From contig JAQSCZ010000003.1 of NCBI GenBank assembly GCA_029945665.1, positions 1-60,538 on the forward strand: a stretch of 60,538 nt of DNA, given 5' to 3'. The position numbers and the translations under genes are program-made. The DNA is from a bacterium. Lineage in GTDB: Bacteria > Bacteroidota > Bacteroidia > NS11-12g > UBA955. This document shows positions 9,436-19,841 of the stretch, one piece after another; within the stretch, counting starts at the first letter, position 1, and every line of letters starts with the position of its first letter. The notes beneath the pieces were generated by a model, which was given only the letters and a program-made list of their open reading frames with translations, did not search any database and was not told where the DNA came from.

Positions 9436-11685
9436 ATGAAAAAAATTTTACCTGCCTTGCTTTTTTTTAGTTTTATAAGTTTATTCAATCGAATAAGTGC
9501 ACAAAACAATACTTTAAAAGGAAGTGTTGTTGAACAAAATTCTCCTGTACAAAGTGTGAATATACAAATAGTGAATACTAACAGAATTGAACGCTCGGAT
9601 TCTATGGGTCGTTTTGGTTTTAATAATTTACCGATGGGCCCTATTGAATTGAAATTTGCAAGACTAGGCTATCAGGATAAGATTGTAAAATTAACTGTAA
9701 GGTCAGGTATCAATTATATAAACGTTGAATTGTTAGCTGATGCCATCGAAATAAAGGGAATCTCAATTACAGGAAATAAGCAACCAAATAATATGATTTC
9801 ACAAATCGATATGCAATTACGCCCATTGTCTTCATCACAAGATTTATTGCGAATGGTGCCAGGTTTGTTTATTGCTCAACATGCTGGAGGAGGTAAAGCT
9901 GAGCAAATATTTTTGCGTGGTTTCGATGTAGACCATGGTACTGATTTCGCAATTTATGTAGATGGAATTCCTGTCAATATGACTTCGCATGCCCACGGGC
10001 AAGGCTATGCAGACTTGCATTTTTTAATTCCTGAAACTGTAAAGGAGCTAGAGGTAAATAAAGGGCCACATGCTACTAATTATGGAGATTTAGCAACTGC
10101 CGGCTCCGGAGAATTTCGGACACTTAATAACTTGAATAAAAACTTGGTTAAATTTGAACTTGGAATGTTTGATTCAAAGCGGGTTTTGGCAATGTTTAAT
10201 TTATTAAACAATAAACATTTGTTCTCCAAACAAAATGAAAATTTATATGTTGCTGGTGAATATAAATATACAAATTCTTATTTTCAAAGTAAGCAACATT
10301 TTAACAGATTCAATATTTTCACAAAGTATACTGGAAAGCTCAATAACGGCGATTTCTTAACCCTTTCTCTATCGACATTCCAAAGTCAATGGGATGCCTC
10401 TGGCCAAATACCGGATAGAAAAGTTAACGATGCCACAATTTCGCGTTTTGGAAGTATTGACCCAACAGAAGGTGGTAAAACTGGTCGGACGAATTTCAAT
10501 ATAATTCACGAACGGAAATGGAAACAAACCAGTTTGAAAAATCAATTTTTTTACAGCAGATATGATTTTAACCTATACTCAAACTTTACATTTTATTTGC
10601 ACGATTCTATCAATGGCGATCAAATCCAACAAGTCGATCATCGCAATGTATTAGGGTATAATTCAACTTTAATAAACACTAAAACTTTATTTGAAAGAAC
10701 ATTAACTTCAATTATTGGAGTAGGTGTTCGATACGATAATTCTGAAATTCAATTGAATAAAACTGTCAAAAGAGAATTACTTAGTCAAAAAGTATTTGGA
10801 AAATTGAATCAAATTAACACATGGTTATATGCCGATGAAACATTGCAATTAAATTCAAAATTAAAATTAAATTTAGGCACGCGTTTCGATGTTTATAATT
10901 TTGATTTTAAAGATTACTTAGTTGATTCGGCCTCGGGGATAGCAGTAAAAGCTATTGCCAGTCCAAAAGTAAATTTAACATATTCTGCTAATAAGTCTTT
11001 TCAGTTGTTTGCAAAATCAGGTTTTGGTTTTCACTCAAACGATGCAAGAGCGGTAGTAGTTGGCAAACTAGAAAACACCTTGGCAAGGGCCTTTGGAAAT
11101 GAACTAGGTACTACATTCAAACCATTTAAAAAATTGCTTGTAAATATTGCCTTTTGGTCGCTCGATCTTCAAAGTGAATTGGTTTATGTTGGTGATGAAG
11201 GCATTGTTGAAGCAACAGGGAGAACCCGCAGAATTGGAATAGACATAGGCCTTCGCTATCAATTAAATAAGCATCTGTTTTTTGATGTTGATATCAATAG
11301 AAATAATGGTTGGTTGCGCGACGAACCAAAAGATGCACGAAATATTCCATTGGCACCAACATTTACAAGTATTGGAGGCATTACCTATAAAAATAAAACA
11401 GGCTTTAATGGCAGCTTTAGATACCGTTACATGGGCGATAGGGCTGCTATCGAAGATAATTCAATTGTTGCAAAAGGTTATTTTTTAACAGATGCAGTGC
11501 TTAACTACAGTTTTAAAAAGTTACAATTGGGTGTATCTGTCGAGAATCTTTTCAATACAAAATGGAAAGAGGCGCAATTTGCCACCGAAAGTCGATTGAA
11601 GGATGAGTCAGCGCCAATTAACGAGATTCATTTTACACCAGGGACACCTTTGTTTGTCAAACTTAATTTTACATTTTTTTTGTAA
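9436..11685 (+). CDS. TonB-dependent outer-membrane receptor with N-terminal CarboxypepD_reg domain
   Basis: 749 residues. Signal peptide 1-23 (..RISAQ), then a carboxypeptidase-regulatory-like beta-sandwich (about 26-110: LKGSVVEQNSPVQSVNIQI..GRFGFNNLPMGPIELKFARLGY), a plug domain (about 120-235) and a 22-strand barrel ending in FFL. The plug holds a histidine-rich stretch (VDHGTDFAIYVDG, then SHAHGQGYADLH) that could touch a metal or metal complex; this is inference. Energised by TonB-ExbBD it would import a scarce ligand. It is controlled by the same ECF-type promoter as the DUF4331 and TPR genes, so it is likely the uptake arm of that regulon. No SusD partner is present. Confidence 0.88.
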   Translation: MKKILPALLFFSFISLFNRISAQNNTLKGSVVEQNSPVQSVNIQIVNTNRIERSDSMGRFGFNNLPMGPIELKFARLGYQDKIVKLTVRSGINYINVELLADAIEIKGISITGNKQPNNMISQIDMQLRPLSSSQDLLRMVPGLFIAQHAGGGKAEQIFLRGFDVDHGTDFAIYVDGIPVNMTSHAHGQGYADLHFLIPETVKELEVNKGPHATNYGDLATAGSGEFRTLNNLNKNLVKFELGMFDSKRVLAMFNLLNNKHLFSKQNENLYVAGEYKYTNSYFQSKQHFNRFNIFTKYTGKLNNGDFLTLSLSTFQSQWDASGQIPDRKVNDATISRFGSIDPTEGGKTGRTNFNIIHERKWKQTSLKNQFFYSRYDFNLYSNFTFYLHDSINGDQIQQVDHRNVLGYNSTLINTKTLFERTLTSIIGVGVRYDNSEIQLNKTVKRELLSQKVFGKLNQINTWLYADETLQLNSKLKLNLGTRFDVYNFDFKDYLVDSASGIAVKAIASPKVNLTYSANKSFQLFAKSGFGFHSNDARAVVVGKLENTLARAFGNELGTTFKPFKKLLVNIAFWSLDLQSELVYVGDEGIVEATGRTRRIGIDIGLRYQLNKHLFFDVDINRNNGWLRDEPKDARNIPLAPTFTSIGGITYKNKTGFNGSFRYRYMGDRAAIEDNSIVAKGYFLTDAVLNYSFKKLQLGVSVENLFNTKWKEAQFATESRLKDESAPINEIHFTPGTPLFVKLNFTFFL

Positions 11686-14072: not shown

Positions 14073-14720
14073 TTAAGAGAAAATTCTTTTCCACCAAGGT
14101 TGTTCTGTGTGAAGTATCTTTTTGTAATGTGGGTTGTTGTTAGCTTTTTCTAGGCTTAAATCTAGCCAGTTTTCATACCACTCAATAAAAGTTAATGATT
14201 CTTTAACTCCCGATGGCATTGCCTTATATTCATTGATGTCTATAAACCAAATTTTTCCCACTTCGTCTCCATTTAAAACCAGTACACCAAAATAAGTACA
14301 ACCCTCCGTTTGAATGGGTAAGATTCCATTGACATTTTCTAATGTAATTGAACAAAATTTCTCAGGTTTGTTTGTTTTTTCTTCTTCTATCATCCGTGCC
14401 TTATTTGAAGAAATCTCAGTCAAATAATTCATTTTGGAATGACCACCTTTCCGTTCTGCCCATTCATTAAATTCTGTTTCCATTTGATTTAATGATAATA
14501 TCCCATAATCGGGGCCTGCACCAATTCCAATTTGAATTAAAAAGTCCCTGAAATCATTAGGTAGTTTGATATTGTTTTTGTTTTCGAATAATCCTATTTG
14601 TTCCTCTGTTAAAGGATTTGATTGGTATAGATGCGAACTTGATCCAAATGTATTCAATTCGAAGTCTTGCCGTTTTAAAATACTAAGTTTGTCTTTGATC
14701 TGTAATGTTTTTTCGTTCAT
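14073..14720 (-). CDS. SMI1/KNR4 (SUKH) family protein, probable immunity protein
   Basis: 215 residues. The SUKH-1 core begins about residue 37 (PLTEEQIGLFENKNNIKLPNDFRDFLIQIG), with the conserved GAGPDYGIL and later YFGVLVLNGDEVGKIWFID segments. SUKH proteins commonly neutralise nuclease toxins of contact-dependent or polymorphic toxin systems. No toxin gene is adjacent, so this is an orphan immunity gene or a domesticated one. It is preceded by a small secreted protein gene with an 8-base gap. Confidence 0.75.
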   Translation of the reverse strand: MNEKTLQIKDKLSILKRQDFELNTFGSSSHLYQSNPLTEEQIGLFENKNNIKLPNDFRDFLIQIGIGAGPDYGILSLNQMETEFNEWAERKGGHSKMNYLTEISSNKARMIEEEKTNKPEKFCSITLENVNGILPIQTEGCTYFGVLVLNGDEVGKIWFIDINEYKAMPSGVKESLTFIEWYENWLDLSLEKANNNPHYKKILHTEQPWWKRIFS

Positions 14721-14728
14721 GCTTTACT

Positions 14729-15139
14729 TTATTCAAACTTAATTAGAAAAATCTGAAAGGCTTTTGTTTGTCCCGGTGATTCCAAGTAAACAATATGTAA
14801 TTCCTTTCTACCATTCTTAATATATAACTTTAATAAATCATTTACAGCGTATGTATAGTATTCCATTGTTTTATTTACAACACATTGTTGCGTTTCAGTC
14901 AAAACTTTCATTTCACCTTTACAACCATAACAAGGGGTGTCATCAAAATAATAAATTTGAATGCTATCTTCCATTTTTACATCTACACTTTTAATTTCAA
15001 TTTTATATTGACCGTTGTAATTAATAAAATCCCAACGCTTCAAATGGTTGTAATAAACATGACAAAAATCTAAAGTATCTGCTTTTGTAATAAAGCTCCA
15101 GCCAACCATAAATATTACAAGAAATAAAATCCGTTTCAT
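14729..15139 (-). CDS. Small secreted protein of unknown function
   Basis: 136 residues. Signal peptide MKRILFLVIFMVGWSFITKA, then a soluble beta-rich domain with a CYGC pair (DDTPCYGCKGE) and two further Cys that could form disulphides or bind metal. I do not recognise the family. It is the first gene of the minus-strand set, 8 bases before the SUKH gene. Its promoter must lie in the short gap after the terminator at 15173-15207, where no TAnnTTTG element is seen. Confidence 0.6.
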   Translation of the reverse strand: MKRILFLVIFMVGWSFITKADTLDFCHVYYNHLKRWDFINYNGQYKIEIKSVDVKMEDSIQIYYFDDTPCYGCKGEMKVLTETQQCVVNKTMEYYTYAVNDLLKLYIKNGRKELHIVYLESPGQTKAFQIFLIKFE

Positions 15140-15229: not shown

Positions 15230-16585
15230 CTATTTTATAATCACAACTTTTTTATTAATGGTGTTTTGTCCATTTGACATGGTTACGAAATACTCACCTG
15301 CATATAACTTCTGTGTATCGAAATATGCAATGGTACTGCCTTGTAAAAGAATAGTGGTATCCACTAGTTTACCATTCATGTCATATAAATTTATGTTCAA
15401 ATTATCCCTGTTCAAATCATTTACTTGAATGGCTATTAAATCGCTCGCTGGATTTGGATAAATGTCTATTTTAAAATCTGTCCCCAATGGTCTTAGACCC
15501 GATGATGATGGAACATATGTGCTCACACTTTCTACAATACTTGTTACTTTAACCGCATTTTTCACACCATAAAAATAAGGGCCAACAGCGTATGGATAGG
15601 CTGAATTCCAATTGGCGTCTACCGTTGCAAAATAGCAATAAATACCATTTGGATATTCGGGAGTTTTACAAAAACGGCCATTGTGTTCATCTAAGTAATC
15701 GGGTGTTGCTGGTGTCGTTGTGTCATACTGATAATCTTCTCTAAAATACCCCAATGGATAAGTTGCATTTACTGCAGGACCAGCAGTCACACTTGAACCA
15801 TTTGAATAAGTGTTTCGAACTGCAATGTTTCTTAAATTATAACTCGATTTCATTCTTATAATACCGCCAGTGCCGTCAGTATTTTTGTAAGCATAGGCCC
15901 CATAAATTGGAAAACCATCGTATGCAAATCCAATTAAAGGAGAATGTTTGGTGCTATCAATTGCATACAAACCATCGGCATCGTATAGGTTACAAATAGT
16001 TGAGATAACTTTTTTATCTAATTTAAAGGCACTTGGATTTTGATGGTGGTGGTAATTGCCCATGGCAGGGTGACCCTTGGAACAGTCGAATCCACCCTTT
16101 TCTCCAACGATGGCGTCACGGTTCCATACCCCATCGCCAATTCCCATTAATGGTCCTCCTTTTAATGCATTTTGTGAATTGCTCCAAGATACCCCATCTC
16201 TGTAATCAAACAAAGCAACACCATTGATAAAAATACCAATATTCCCTCCGTTGGTAGCAGTTAGCATGCCTGTATTTTTAGTAGGATTTAAACTCACCTT
16301 GAAGATTGCATTTTGAGCAGATGCCAATGAAGGATTACCATCTAAAAATGGACCAGTCATATAAGCAGGAATACCTTGTGTACTAATATACACCCAATTA
16401 GTGGAATACTGCACTGTTTGCACATTTACTAATACATTGTCGTTAATAGGCGTGGAGTTGCCACTCACATAATGTCTTCCTTTAATGGTGTTGTTTTGTA
16501 GCCAATTCAGTATCGCCGGATTGGTTTGGGCTTGTAGTCCTGATATGAAAAAGCCAAGTACGATTGTTAAATATATTTTCCTCAT
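15230..16585 (-). CDS. YHYH-domain protein with T9SS type A sorting domain
   Basis: 451 residues. Signal peptide 1-20 (..SGLQAQ). The YHYH domain runs about 55-335, with family landmarks DCSKGHPAMGNYHHHQNP (YHHH at 178-181), YDADGLYAID, AYDGFPIYGAYAY (about 221-233) and DYLDEHNGRFCKTPEYPNGIY. The C-terminal 80 residues from IDIYPNPASDLIAIQV are a T9SS type A sorting domain, so it ends at the surface or outside the cell. Clustered His and Tyr suggest metal binding, but the family's function is not established. It is the last gene of the ECF/MbnPH operon, 47 bases after mbnH, so a role in copper handling is inferred from context. Confidence 0.85.
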   Translation of the reverse strand: MRKIYLTIVLGFFISGLQAQTNPAILNWLQNNTIKGRHYVSGNSTPINDNVLVNVQTVQYSTNWVYISTQGIPAYMTGPFLDGNPSLASAQNAIFKVSLNPTKNTGMLTATNGGNIGIFINGVALFDYRDGVSWSNSQNALKGGPLMGIGDGVWNRDAIVGEKGGFDCSKGHPAMGNYHHHQNPSAFKLDKKVISTICNLYDADGLYAIDSTKHSPLIGFAYDGFPIYGAYAYKNTDGTGGIIRMKSSYNLRNIAVRNTYSNGSSVTAGPAVNATYPLGYFREDYQYDTTTPATPDYLDEHNGRFCKTPEYPNGIYCYFATVDANWNSAYPYAVGPYFYGVKNAVKVTSIVESVSTYVPSSSGLRPLGTDFKIDIYPNPASDLIAIQVNDLNRDNLNINLYDMNGKLVDTTILLQGSTIAYFDTQKLYAGEYFVTMSNGQNTINKKVVIIK

Positions 16586-16632
16586 TTTTTTAAATTGCAG
16601 TTTGTGTATAATGTCTTTTAGACGCTCATTTA

Positions 16633-17664
16633 TTATTTATTTGGCGAAGTATTGAATATTTTTTTCGGATACCCAAATTTGGGATTGAATAAAAAGGTCT
16701 TGTCTGTTAAAGTTAATAAAAATGCTATGATATCAACTTTCTCATTAGCGGAAAATGCCATTGGCTTTCTTAGTTGAGCGGCCAATGTTTCAGAAGATTG
16801 AATGCCCTGCGTGTAATGGTTCAAGACTTCAGATAACTTTTTGAATCGGCCATCATGCATGTAAGGGTATGAAAATTCAATATTGCGCAATGAAGGTACT
16901 TTGAATTTAAATGCATCTTGCAAATAATGTGTAATGCGAATTCTTCCGGAATCTTTCAATTCGTTAGAGATGGGTAAGCCATTGTTTTCAAATTGGTAGG
17001 AACTAAAGAGTGGTTCGGTATGACAGCTGCTGCAATTGATTTTAAACAACTGATAGCCTCTTTTTTCTTGCGCGGTGAATTTAGATTGATGTCTTTTTAC
17101 ACTGTCATATTTGGAATTTGAACTAACCAAAGTTAGCATAAATTGTGAAATTGCTTTTAAAGTATGCTCGCCAGAAATATTACTATCATTAAAGGCTAAA
17201 AGAAACCATTTTTTATAATACTTGCTTTTTTGTAATTTAAAAACGACACTGTCAAACGATTCACCCATTTCATCTGGGTGATTGATTGGCGCCAGTGCTT
17301 GCACATCCAGATGGTTTATGGCCCCGTCCCACATAAATTGCCTTTGCCAAGCAAGGTTCATTAAGGCCGGTGCATTGCGAGTTCCAATTCTGTCGTTTAT
17401 ACCATGACTTAGTGCATGGTCGACATGCGTGAAGGCGGTGTATTGTAAATGGCAACTGGCGCAAGAAATGGTATTGTCTTTTGAAAGTATTGGGTCGTAA
17501 AATAAATTTCTACCCAATTCAATTGCTGTAAAATTCGGTGGATTTTTATTGAAATTATAAACAGGTTTTGGCCAATTTTCAGGAACCGTAAACTCATATG
17601 ACTTTATAAAAGCATAGCCACTTGTTAGACAAAGAATGAGAGCTATAATTATTACTTTTCGCAT
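16633..17664 (-). CDS. mbnH: MbnH-like di-haem MauG/cytochrome-c-peroxidase family protein
   Basis: 343 residues from the ATG at 17664 (an upstream ATG would add three). A signal anchor at the N-terminus is followed by two c-type haem sites, CASCH (68-72) and CSSCH (211-215), in the bacterial di-haem peroxidase layout. Other motifs are RIGTRNAPALMN, MWDGAINHLDVQALAPINHPDEMG and KVPSLRNIEFSYPYMHDGRF. MbnH is known to use a bis-Fe(IV)-type state to convert a tryptophan of MbnP to kynurenine, creating a copper-binding site. Its pairing with mbnP by overlapping coding sequence is the main reason for choosing MbnH over an ordinary cytochrome c peroxidase. It acts in the periplasm. Confidence 0.82.
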   Translation of the reverse strand: MRKVIIIALILCLTSGYAFIKSYEFTVPENWPKPVYNFNKNPPNFTAIELGRNLFYDPILSKDNTISCASCHLQYTAFTHVDHALSHGINDRIGTRNAPALMNLAWQRQFMWDGAINHLDVQALAPINHPDEMGESFDSVVFKLQKSKYYKKWFLLAFNDSNISGEHTLKAISQFMLTLVSSNSKYDSVKRHQSKFTAQEKRGYQLFKINCSSCHTEPLFSSYQFENNGLPISNELKDSGRIRITHYLQDAFKFKVPSLRNIEFSYPYMHDGRFKKLSEVLNHYTQGIQSSETLAAQLRKPMAFSANEKVDIIAFLLTLTDKTFLFNPKFGYPKKIFNTSPNK

Positions 17665-18356
17665 GGTGTACAAATACGAAATGCTTGGGCAGCTGCCTTC
17701 GAAATTAAAACAGAATTATTACTAGGAGACATGATATGGTGTTGAAGGTCCAATGGTATTTTTTGAATCCATTTTTCCAAATCAAACACAATGCAAATGG
17801 GCATTTGGTCGCAAGTATTTAAAACAATTTGTTGCATGGCTGAATATGGATATAAATAACCTCCCAAATGCAATTGAAAAAGTTGATTATTCGTTTTGCA
17901 TAAATTGCTTTTACCTTCTAGTTTTAAATTGATGTATCCGCTTTGCCACGACCAATACATGCCTTTGCTAGGATCTAAGTCGCCGCCCAATGCGCCAGCG
18001 TTACTGGTGATACTATCAATGCCTAAATTGAATTTTATTTGATTGTATTGTGTGTTTTGAGGCAATTTCAATGCAAAAAAAGAACTACTAGAATCACTGA
18101 TATCTATGAGATGAAAACTGTTCGTCTCAATCCAAATAGATTGATTGTTTAACAAGAGTTCGATGCCTGAAATATAATATCTAAGGGTGGTGATTTTAAT
18201 ACTGTCATGCTGGTTTAGTCTATAGATTGAATCTGTGCAAATTGTTTTAGAGTCACCGATAGCATGTTTAATCTGTATTTTTACAATACTGGATTGCGCA
18301 AATATTGTATTGAAAATTAAAACACAACAGAGAAATAAGAAAATCCCATGTTTCAT
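17652..18356 (-). CDS. mbnP: MbnP-family copper-binding protein
   Basis: 234 residues. Signal peptide 1-20. Family marks are TLRYYISGIELLL (about 57-69), LGIDSITSNAGALGGDLDPSKGMYWSWQSGYINLKLEG (about 111-148), LHLGG (about 162-166) and six Cys in the mature part (40, 153, 182, 188, 229, 232), fitting the four-Cys 'metallo-mystery pair' description. MbnP binds Cu(I) through a kynurenine made by MbnH; Trp135 or Trp137 in MYWSW is a candidate for the modified residue, which is inference. The start overlaps the previous gene (ATGA), and its end overlaps mbnH. Confidence 0.88.
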   Translation of the reverse strand: MKHGIFLFLCCVLIFNTIFAQSSIVKIQIKHAIGDSKTICTDSIYRLNQHDSIKITTLRYYISGIELLLNNQSIWIETNSFHLIDISDSSSSFFALKLPQNTQYNQIKFNLGIDSITSNAGALGGDLDPSKGMYWSWQSGYINLKLEGKSNLCKTNNQLFQLHLGGYLYPYSAMQQIVLNTCDQMPICIVFDLEKWIQKIPLDLQHHIMSPSNNSVLISKAAAQAFRICTPCEK

Positions 18357-18853
18357 CGAGGCCTATTTGGTTTATTGTCAGGCCTGAAATAATCTCGGAT
18401 TTCGTAAACTAAAGATTCGAATTTTTCTTGCTGTTCTGGCGTGCATATTTTTTTAAGTTCTGCAGCTTGTTCAATTCGCAATAATTCTATTTGGTATTCA
18501 TTATTTGATACACGCAAAGCAATTACTTTTGCTAAAATTTCATCGGACTCTTTTTTAAATATTTGCTCATTCATTGAATCGTGTTGTTTGCGAATTAATT
18601 CATGTAAAGCGTTTTCTTTTTTAAAAAACGAAGTTCTTAAATTGTTGAATTGCGAGACTTGATCTGTATTTAGATTCAGTTCTTTTTCGATGATGAATGA
18701 CACCTCACGGAATCCTTCTTTCCCGGGGTGTGGTGGGCGATGGCCTCGGTGATTGAAGTCTCGCCAAAGCATTGCTGCAAGAATTGAAATGTTCAGAATG
18801 GCTAATATCAAAACCAAACGTATTAATAACTTTTTTTGTTTAAAGATATCCAT
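18353..18853 (-). CDS. Spy/CpxP/CnrX-like periplasmic metal-sensor protein
   Basis: 166 residues. One N-terminal membrane anchor (about 10-30) is followed by a His/Pro-rich stretch (NHRGHRPPHPG) and a long helical domain (about 55-150: LNLNTDQVSQFNNLRTSFFKKENALHELIRKQ..CTPEQQEKFESLVYEI) of the Spy/CpxP/metal-resist type. Proteins of this fold include CnrX, which senses metal and releases an ECF sigma factor through its anti-sigma partner. The gene sits 3 bases after an anti-sigma-like gene, which suits a CnrX-type sensor, though a Spy-like chaperone cannot be excluded. It overlaps mbnP by four bases. Confidence 0.75.
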   Translation of the reverse strand: MDIFKQKKLLIRLVLILAILNISILAAMLWRDFNHRGHRPPHPGKEGFREVSFIIEKELNLNTDQVSQFNNLRTSFFKKENALHELIRKQHDSMNEQIFKKESDEILAKVIALRVSNNEYQIELLRIEQAAELKKICTPEQQEKFESLVYEIRDYFRPDNKPNRPR

Positions 18854-18856
18854 AAA

Positions 18857-19165
18857 TTAATTGGGATGAACGTTAGAGTTAATAAATAATTCACTTGAAA
18901 TAGTTTTAAGTTCACTGCTTCTTTCGGATGAATCAATGGGGTTATTGCTGACGGTTTTTACAAAAAATCCAATATTCAGAATAATAAATAACACAGCAAC
19001 AAAACTCACCTTGCCTGCAGTAAGGCCTCTGTTTTCAATTGAATTGTTTCGCGCCATTTTTTGCATTAGACGCGAATTCCATTCTTCATTAATGGGTCTA
19101 CTTTCAATGTTTTCAAATTGATTGATGATGTTTTCAACTTTATTATTTAAATCTGTTTCTTTCAT
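18857..19165 (-). CDS. Single-span membrane protein, probable anti-sigma factor
   Basis: 102 residues. A cytoplasmic N-terminus of about 48 residues (IINQFENIESRPINEEWNSRLMQKMARNN), one membrane helix (about 52-70, VSFVAVLFIILNIGFFV) and a short periplasmic tail. The size and layout match CnrY-type anti-sigma factors rather than zinc-dependent ones, as there is no HxxxCxxC. It lies between the ECF sigma gene (40-base gap) and the metal-sensor-like gene (3-base gap), the usual place for an anti-sigma. Its role is inferred from position and topology. Confidence 0.65.
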   Translation of the reverse strand: MKETDLNNKVENIINQFENIESRPINEEWNSRLMQKMARNNSIENRGLTAGKVSFVAVLFIILNIGFFVKTVSNNPIDSSERSSELKTISSELFINSNVHPN

Positions 19166-19205
19166 AACATAATGTTTTAGACGATTTTTGTTTTTGATTC
19201 TGGCG

Positions 19206-19778
19206 TTAAGATTGACTATTTTTAAGTATTTTATTTAACTTATCGCCTATTTTCTTTTTGCCACGGTAAATTAATGAATCCACAGAAACCACGGTTGTGC
19301 TCAAAATAGCTGCAATTTCTACATTTGAATAACCTTCAATTTTGCTAAGTGTAAACGCTATTCTCTGATTGTCAGGCAAAGTATTTAGGGCCTCACTGAT
19401 GCTGTTTGTTGTTTCATTCTCCTCCAGTTTTTTATCTGGTCTTAAGCCGCCGCTAAGCCAATACGCAATATCGTCAAGGTGCAGTAATTTGCCAACCGAA
19501 CTAATTCTCTTTTTTCTATTCCGTTTTTTTATTTCATCTAAGCTTTTGGTCACAGCAATGCGATATATCCAGGTTGATAGTTTCGATTGACCTTTAAATT
19601 CTTTGATAGATTGATAGACCTCAATAAACACTTCTTGTGATATATCCTCAGCATCTGCTTGGTCGAGCAGAAATTTAAAGCAGGTGTTATAAACTTGTTG
19701 TCTATGGGTTCTAACCAAATATTCGAATGCGGTCTTGTCACCTTGTTTCAATAGCGAAATTTGGACAGATTCTTCCAT
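19206..19778 (-). CDS. ECF-family RNA polymerase sigma factor
   Basis: 190 residues. Sigma-2 domain (about 14-85: EYLVRTHRQQVYNTCFKFL, AEDISQEVFIEVYQSI, KLSTWIYRIAVTKSLDEIKKR) and sigma-4 domain (about 130-185: LPDNQRIAFTLSKIEGYSNVEIAAILSTTVVSVDSLIYRGKKKI), with no sigma-3. It heads a six-gene operon of anti-sigma, sensor, MbnP, MbnH and YHYH genes. It is the only sigma factor in the window and so the first candidate reader of the AAAACC-N16-CGTATGT promoters at 405, 4389 and 9381. That element is not seen upstream of its own operon, so this link is unproven. Confidence 0.92.
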   Translation of the reverse strand: MEESVQISLLKQGDKTAFEYLVRTHRQQVYNTCFKFLLDQADAEDISQEVFIEVYQSIKEFKGQSKLSTWIYRIAVTKSLDEIKKRNRKKRISSVGKLLHLDDIAYWLSGGLRPDKKLEENETTNSISEALNTLPDNQRIAFTLSKIEGYSNVEIAAILSTTVVSVDSLIYRGKKKIGDKLNKILKNSQS

Positions 19779-19833: not shown

Positions 19834-19841
19834 CAAACATA
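19834..19841 (-). promoter_or_regulatory. -7 element upstream of the ECF sigma gene
   Basis: On the minus strand TATGTTTG is a perfect TAnnTTTG element about 55 bases before the sigma start. No TTTG lies at the right distance upstream, so the promoter is incomplete or activator-dependent. Confidence 0.4.

Follow-up and report, generated by a model that had tools for sequence, protein, structure and literature searches.

Do six closely packed genes of a Bacteroidota bacterium form a single regulated unit, and if so, what does the unit respond to? The genes occupy positions 15230-19778 on the minus strand of a 60,538-nucleotide stretch of contig JAQSCZ010000003.1 (positions 1 to 60,538; assembly GCA_029945665.1). 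This whole stretch of DNA is called the window below. A first-pass annotation had proposed that the genes join a Cnr-like trio of sigma factor, anti-sigma factor and metal sensor to an MbnP-MbnH pair and a secreted YHYH protein, and that together they make up a complete, self-regulated copper module. As judged from sequence, the module is real, conserved and self-regulated, and it has a promoter that predicts members. The locus is probably (roughly 0.6) one extracytoplasmic function (ECF) sigma regulon dedicated to extracytoplasmic metal, most likely copper.

All six open reading frames (ORFs) are present with the order, families and coordinates that the first-pass annotation had given. They are listed here with the associated promoter sites, in the direction of transcription:

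19834-19841, minus strand: TATGTTTG, a possible promoter of the sigma factor gene that resembles a -7 box (found by eye, with no statistic).
19206-19778, minus strand: ECF sigma factor (190 amino acids) with matches to Sigma70_r2 and r4_2; its nearest solved sigma factor is SigW (2e-24).
19177-19205, minus strand: ECF-type promoter 1, CGCCAGAAT-N13-CGTCTAA, right behind the sigma factor stop codon and ahead of the anti-sigma, Spy-like, MbnP and MbnH genes; a border site is found in 32 of 35 loci.
18857-19165, minus strand: putative single-span anti-sigma factor (102 amino acids), assigned by position, with no Pfam or NCBIfam match.
18353-18853, minus strand: candidate membrane-anchored periplasmic sensor of the Spy/CnrX superfamily (166 amino acids); Metal_resist 1.4e-6 and LTXXQ 1.6e-4, both narrowly below cut-off.
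17652-18356, minus strand: MbnP-family protein (PF20243, 6e-39) with WxW at 135-137 and the invariant His163.
16633-17673, minus strand: MbnH/MauG-like di-haem enzyme (CCP_MauG, 4e-52) with two CxxCH motifs and Tyr287.
16618-16646, minus strand: ECF-type promoter 2, CGCCAAATA-N13-CGTCTAA, 32 nucleotides ahead of the YHYH start codon, recognised as a sequence pattern.
15230-16585, minus strand: YHYH-domain protein (YHYH 1e-56) with an N-terminal signal-like helix and a C-terminal type A sorting domain of the type IX secretion system (T9SS; PF18962, 5e-15).

The Spy-like and MbnP ORFs overlap by 4 bases, and those of MbnP and MbnH by 22 if the listed TTG is the MbnH start.

The survey of genomes that the first-pass annotation had suggested reveals a conserved neighbourhood. 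It used two sets of regions that have part of their genomes in common (L093 and L064, for instance). The first set, L033-L092, comprises 60 regions around MbnP genes (2 from the window's own genome and 58 from relatives) picked on relatedness and score out of a longer list of matches, and any YHYH gene in it adjoins MbnP by choice of sample. The second, L093-L172, comprises the top 80 among at least 564 matches that the YHYH query had in GTDB contigs, and YHYH is present in each by choice. Among the 62 MbnP genes of the window and the first set, 56 adjoin an MbnH gene, 21 are followed by YHYH and 16 are preceded by a sigma factor gene. Every one of these 16 is also among those followed by YHYH. 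Where the YHYH genes of the second set have room upstream, they are preceded by MbnH in 58 of 74 cases, by MbnP in 54 of 70, by the sensor in 28 of 66 and by the sigma factor in 28 of 65. The same six-gene order is seen again across genus, family, order and class, which exceeds chance.

The window's own genome carries three MbnP genes, and the trio and YHYH accompany only the one in the window; the genome has a single match to the YHYH family and a single match to the sensor profile. YHYH genes of the module type are uncommon, being found in 15 of 296 genomes of the phylum, own genome counted. The record titles of the second set are almost all those of Bacteroidota metagenome-assembled genomes, and the named cultured species is Fluviicola chungangensis (L153), whose locus comprises the sigma factor, a small gene at the anti-sigma position, the sensor, MbnP, MbnH and a pair of YHYH genes. 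One region (L097) is filed under Phycisphaerales, according to its record title alone and with taxonomy as filed. MbnH sequences from modules group together in a FastTree tree of 109 sequences, requiring 5 label changes compared with 31.9 for shuffled labels. In G128, one of the two phylum genomes that match the strict promoter pattern described below, the sigma factor, sensor, MbnP, MbnH and YHYH genes are in order with both promoter sites, and the place of the anti-sigma gene is a gap in which no ORF was called.

The evidence for self-regulation comes from promoter sites. The sequence CGTCTAA occurs upstream of YHYH in 31 of 96 regions, compared with an expected 0.65 and with none on the other strand. 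GAAGG or a near form lies 21 bases ahead of CGTC; of the 35 bipartite sites, a count that retains near-copies, 33 have exactly this spacing. The canonical form is CGAAGGAWT-N13-CGTCTAA, whose two-part arrangement we take to be the layout of an ECF promoter. A matrix was trained on 28 YHYH sites and applied with a threshold of 12 bits, chosen to lie slightly under the lowest-scoring training site (12.8); loci with identical flanks were collapsed to one, and near-copies were kept. A site marks the border between the sigma and anti-sigma genes in 32 loci out of 35, where 0.05 would be expected, and sites were also found ahead of multicopper oxidase genes in 5 of 19 cases and of MbnP in 5 of 106 (0 expected for each), and ahead of YHYH in 45 of 93, a count that is partly circular given the YHYH training sites. 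They precede few sigma factor genes (4 of 35) and none of the 110 MbnH or 34 Spy-like genes. Because the site is rare at sigma factor genes and common at the border and at YHYH, the sigma factor gene would mostly stand outside the promoter's reach, and the genes from anti-sigma to YHYH inside it, so that the feedback would be negative only. The occurrence of an ECF-type promoter at two places within the module makes the earlier proposal of self-regulation well supported.

Upstream of the sigma factor gene itself, a gapped-word search for a promoter was empty, the ECF-type site being at the 3' end of that gene instead, and no repeats were found near its start. By eye, TTTTTGTATGTTTG or a nearly identical string is present upstream of the gene in the window, L043 and L057, and also in L064, where the listed start cuts it; a string resembling TTTGTATGTTTG is common to the window and its near relatives at this place. 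By its likeness to the Bacteroidota primary-sigma -7 box (TAnnTTTG), the upstream string may be a housekeeping promoter of the type used in this phylum.

The promoter also appears to predict members of the regulon elsewhere. In the 296 phylum genomes, the strict pattern has two matches (control, 0), each directly before YHYH. A looser pattern, run on 117 relatives with the reversed pattern as control, gave 19 matches in 16 genomes as opposed to 5. Four of these precede multicopper oxidase genes and 2 are at YHYH, one of the latter at a contig end where the ORF is not visible. A search allowing one mismatch in 11 genomes, which were chosen for carrying the module or a looser-pattern match, gave 18 matches (control, 0). 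By reading of their places, the regulon accounts for 14 of them, with 6 at the sigma factor gene, 3 at YHYH, 4 at multicopper oxidase genes and 1 at a gene for a T9SS-tailed protein between MbnH and a multicopper oxidase.

The sites in the window, at 19177-19205 and 16618-16646, conform to the variant CGCCARAWW-N13-CGTCTAA. No additional exact copy of this variant exists in the window's own genome. With one mismatch, the own genome (G000) and three sister genomes contain 9 matches, compared with 2 in the control, both of the latter in G000. Five matches are at the module (two in G000, two in G014 and one in G005), and three of the 9 are matches by construction, since the pattern was derived from the two window sites and one site of G014. 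Matches that are independent of the derivation lie off the module, before an unlinked operon of multicopper oxidase and redoxin genes (G005 and G011) and before a second YHYH-type gene (G005). The -35 element departs from the canonical form identically at both window sites, at the module sites of the sisters and at their unlinked multicopper oxidase and YHYH-type genes. A one-mismatch site in the own genome (C21:13894) is unexplained, with no ORF of 50 amino acids starting within 300 bases.

Counted at 60 bits or more, multicopper oxidases accompany 16 of the 80 YHYH loci, redoxins 16 and sulfatases 13 (about 11-13 depending on the threshold); counts at lower thresholds partly reflect shared T9SS tails. 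T9SS-tailed multicopper oxidases, T9SS-tailed sulfatases and AhpC/TSA-type redoxins were confirmed by Pfam in the loci submitted. The word "complete" used by the first-pass annotation is doubtful, because some relatives add these genes beside the module or in trans, with the same promoter. Our confidence rests on the promoter sites and not on the number of oxidase loci.

Sites of this type precede some other genes. A VTC-type gene follows one in four genomes of one genus (L184/L196, which are G091, and L185, L186 and L187; Pfam was run on L186), and G091 has two copies of the site in tandem, at a distance of 83 bases. Two genomes from a single genus (L188 and L189, which are G037 and G029) have the site ahead of an arylsulfotransferase-type gene; the protein of L188, which was the one run through Pfam, has a T9SS tail. 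In L224 (G005:C42), the site stands before genes for a YHYH-type protein, two proteins matching sulfatase profiles and, by eye, a small HupE/UreJ-like membrane protein. A TonB-receptor-like gene, also recognised by eye, is near this site; L068 has one as well, close to MbnP and on the other strand.

The sigma factor has regions 2 (PF04542, 5e-18) and 4 (PF08281, 5e-15) of the sigma-70 family, both above cut-off, and Pfam matched no further sigma region; lacking regions 1 and 3, the product of 19206-19778 is of the ECF type. It also matches TIGR02937 with 107 bits (cut-off, 42.9). The anti-sigma assignment is based on position, on one membrane span seen by eye and on a small gene at the same place in relatives. 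The Spy-like protein reaches 28.9 bits for Metal_resist (cut-off, 29.2) and 22.8 for LTXXQ (cut-off, 24.3), and a profile of 16 sensors reaches NccX at an E-value of only 0.45, another row scoring better. All but one of the 35 aligned sensors share its Cys137. The regulatory trio of the first-pass annotation is thus an ECF sigma factor according to Pfam, a putative anti-sigma factor and a candidate sensor just under both Pfam cut-offs.

The MbnP and MbnH assignments of the first-pass annotation are borne out. MbnP scores 134.4 bits with PF20243 (cut-off, 27), and its W135, W137 and His163 are invariant (18 of 18 aligned for the tryptophans); no solved structural relative was found by sequence search. 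In MbnH, both CxxCH motifs and Tyr287 are invariant in 17 of 17 aligned sequences. This Tyr287 aligns with a Tyr of the MbnH structure 6e1c and with a Met of the peroxidase 3o5c. In the MbnH/MauG group, a Tyr replaces the Met ligand of the peroxidases, and methanotroph MbnH makes kynurenine in MbnP. The module MbnP is therefore likely to undergo the same conversion of Trp to kynurenine and to bind Cu(I), a prediction made from the family. Another common setting of MbnP-MbnH pairs is immediately downstream of the gene for a T9SS-tailed protein of some 640 amino acids, with neither sigma factor nor YHYH (L034, L035, L038, L040, L049 and others); in L038, the one searched with Pfam, this protein is an M1 peptidase.

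The YHYH protein scores 192.4 bits with PF14240 (cut-off, 25), and its H172, H179, H181, H214 and D223 are invariant in 55 of 55 aligned sequences. Its tail, correctly recognised at first pass as a T9SS signal, is above cut-off for both PF18962 and TIGR04183 and matches the fold of the T9SS cargo tails 8qb1 and 8glk. That tail was the sole part of the full-length model matched in a fold search. The YHYH domain was also modelled alone (predicted local distance difference test score, 82.7; predicted template-modelling score, 0.87). Foldseek gave this model no match better than an E-value of 0.63, and comparison with 330 chains gave no VIA Z as high as 2; these results fall short of proof that the fold is new.

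Downstream of the module, the window encodes a small secreted-looking protein of no recognised family (14729-15139) and a SUKH (SMI1/KNR4) family protein identified by Pfam (14073-14720). The former may be a conserved neighbour; by eye, the sister locus L064 has a lookalike (10391-10810) that comes after YHYH.

We propose that these parts work together as follows. Basal sigma factor, made from the housekeeping promoter, would probably be held by the single-span anti-sigma factor, and the membrane-anchored Spy-like protein would keep the anti-sigma factor in check or in place from the periplasmic side. Binding of metal by the sensor, or its detection of an envelope damaged by metal, would free the sigma factor, which would then fire promoter 1 (anti-sigma, sensor, MbnP and MbnH) and promoter 2 (YHYH). 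In sister genomes, the same sigma factor may also fire the operon of the secreted multicopper oxidase and redoxin. MbnH would oxidise a Trp of the WxW motif of MbnP to kynurenine, yielding a Cu(I)-binding periplasmic protein, and YHYH, plus the oxidase where present, would reach the cell surface through the T9SS. Promoter 1 comes after the sigma factor gene, so the loop would include the anti-sigma factor and sensor and not the sigma factor, and the response should shut itself off. MbnP, MbnH and the apparently co-regulated multicopper oxidases give good grounds for suggesting a role in copper.

Several observations weigh against the proposal of a single copper regulon. MbnP is below the equivalog cut-off of TIGR04052 (MbnP_like_WxW; 42.5 versus 140 bits), and MbnH is below that of TIGR04039 (210.8 versus 362.85), though this is its top NCBIfam model; with homologues below equivalog cut-offs, transfer of the kynurenine chemistry is likely, not certain. 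No above-threshold site is found at 48 of 93 YHYH genes and 14 of 19 multicopper oxidase genes. The border sites of L043 and L057 are deviant (CTTC for CGTC), and that of L057 is below threshold. Only 11 nucleotides separate the -10 element of promoter 1 from the anti-sigma ATG, which implies an almost leaderless mRNA. Among the looser-pattern matches, the other 13 of 19 are at VTC-type genes (5), arylsulfotransferase-type genes (2), an FG-GAP gene (1) or places with no clear ORF (5). The multicopper oxidases of the window's own genome were considered as regulon members and rejected, no CGTC site being seen by eye in the 200 bases upstream where the sequence sufficed. The own-genome oxidase nearest to the sister-genome regulon oxidase is 43% identical to it; by eye, it is clustered with proteins resembling heavy-metal-associated domains and has no ECF site (L225, contig C92).

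Some loci also depart from the proposal in their genes. L122 has the sensor, sigma factor, multicopper oxidase and YHYH and neither MbnP nor MbnH. L140 and L158 have no MbnP match, yet they retain the sensor, MbnH and YHYH (L140 also the sigma and anti-sigma factors), a hint that MbnH may act on something else. Several loci have a site before YHYH with no sigma factor gene found alongside, so another sigma factor could read the promoter. Finally, the metal ligands of CnrX are a His and a Met of its last helix. Position 129 of the sensor, the presumed counterpart of a CnrX ligand, holds a His in 28 sensors of the 35 aligned and a Gln in the window, L043, L057 and L064. All four members of this subclade have instead a His/Pro-rich stretch behind the membrane anchor. 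Either the metal site has moved in this subclade or the signal is not a metal.

Of the alternatives, a copper-starvation module survives best, and we regard it as doubtful. The sigma factor would be released at low copper, and MbnP, YHYH and the oxidase would collect or liberate copper at the cell surface, a role proposed for CorA/MopE in methanotrophs. Against this, known sensors of the Spy/CnrX type answer excess metal or envelope stress, multicopper oxidase partners suit the oxidation of Cu(I), and no copper receptor was identified, though no search aimed at one was made. Its support comes from methanotrophs: according to an excerpt of PMC3912023, Methylomicrobium album makes CorA, whose Cu(I) site involves kynurenine, and the haem protein CorB, its co-transcribed partner, when copper is low, and an excerpt of PMC3621798 places MbnP/MbnH pairs near methanobactin genes. 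We lean modestly toward metal excess or flux, rather than starvation, as the trigger.

It is unlikely that the module responds to envelope stress with no dedicated metal. The Spy-like protein would then sense misfolding, and the outputs would modify or cleave surface material, with YHYH as a metal-dependent hydrolase. The sensor has weak NCBIfam matches to CpxP (1e-5) and Spy (1e-3), far below cut-off, sulfatases lie beside some loci, and a set of three His and one Asp in YHYH is predicted, in the excerpted text of PMC7824862, to be the site of such a hydrolase. However, this explanation leaves the sharing of a promoter by MbnP, MbnH and multicopper oxidases unaccounted for. That another ECF sigma factor reads the promoter, and that the neighbouring one controls itself or something else, is quite improbable: sigma factors precede just 28 of the 65 YHYH genes with room, and sites occur where none was found (L097, L101 and L132), but the site ends this very sigma factor gene in 32 of 35 loci, and its -35 part departs alike at cis and trans sites of the window's subclade.

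The regulon proposed here can be extended to a sigma-switched surface copper regulon of Bacteroidota in which YHYH is a new secreted protein for copper or another metal, possibly oxidised by MbnH itself. This extension is speculative, with the odds well against it; it is suggested because L140 and L158 keep MbnH and YHYH in the absence of MbnP, and because the YHYH domain model matched no solved structure.

The combination of the six families was not found in the open-licence PubMed Central (PMC) literature searched, nor was a paper pairing YHYH with a multicopper oxidase. The module is also a candidate for a Bacteroidota sigma switch of the Spy type whose targets can be named, and no such switch was seen described among the open-licence papers covered. 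The little-known YHYH and Bacteroidota MbnP/MbnH families appear to be tied to one regulator and one promoter, so their trigger, regulon and function become testable, and the promoter sequence predicts further members, including the unlinked multicopper oxidases of sister genomes.

The module resembles CnrYXH and NccYXH of Cupriavidus in bringing together an ECF sigma factor, a small membrane anti-sigma factor and an anchored periplasmic sensor of the Spy superfamily. The label "Cnr-like" holds for this layout and not for the sigma factor, which is nearer to SigW (2e-24), SigH (3e-23) and RpoE (1e-20) than to CnrH (4cxf, 2e-10). The module also differs from Cnr in having the sigma factor gene first and MbnP, MbnH, YHYH and oxidase as outputs in place of an efflux pump, and its sensor is related at the level of the superfamily. 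With plain MbnP-MbnH pairs it shares the adjoining genes, the WxW motif and the MauG-type Tyr, and it adds the trio and the T9SS-tailed YHYH protein, which are absent from the other two pairs in the window's own genome. In methanotrophs, CorA-CorB and MopE-SACCP likewise couple a surface Cu(I) protein that has kynurenine at its site with the gene of a di-haem peroxidase-like partner. In excerpts, CorA binds Cu(I) by two His with kynurenine nearby (PMC3912023), MbnP has no marked sequence similarity to MopE or CorA (PMC3621798), and the methanotroph systems are copper-repressed, with no ECF trio noted. Some methanobactin operons also have an ECF sigma factor near MbnP/MbnH, but their MbnIRT system, as excerpted from PMC3621798, is of the FecIRA type, with a TonB receptor and a FecR-like rather than a Spy-like sensor. 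Finally, the YHYH proteins of jumbo phages share the domain and its conserved His and Asp residues with the protein of the module, and differ from it, according to the excerpt of PMC7824862, in being tail-associated predicted hydrolases.

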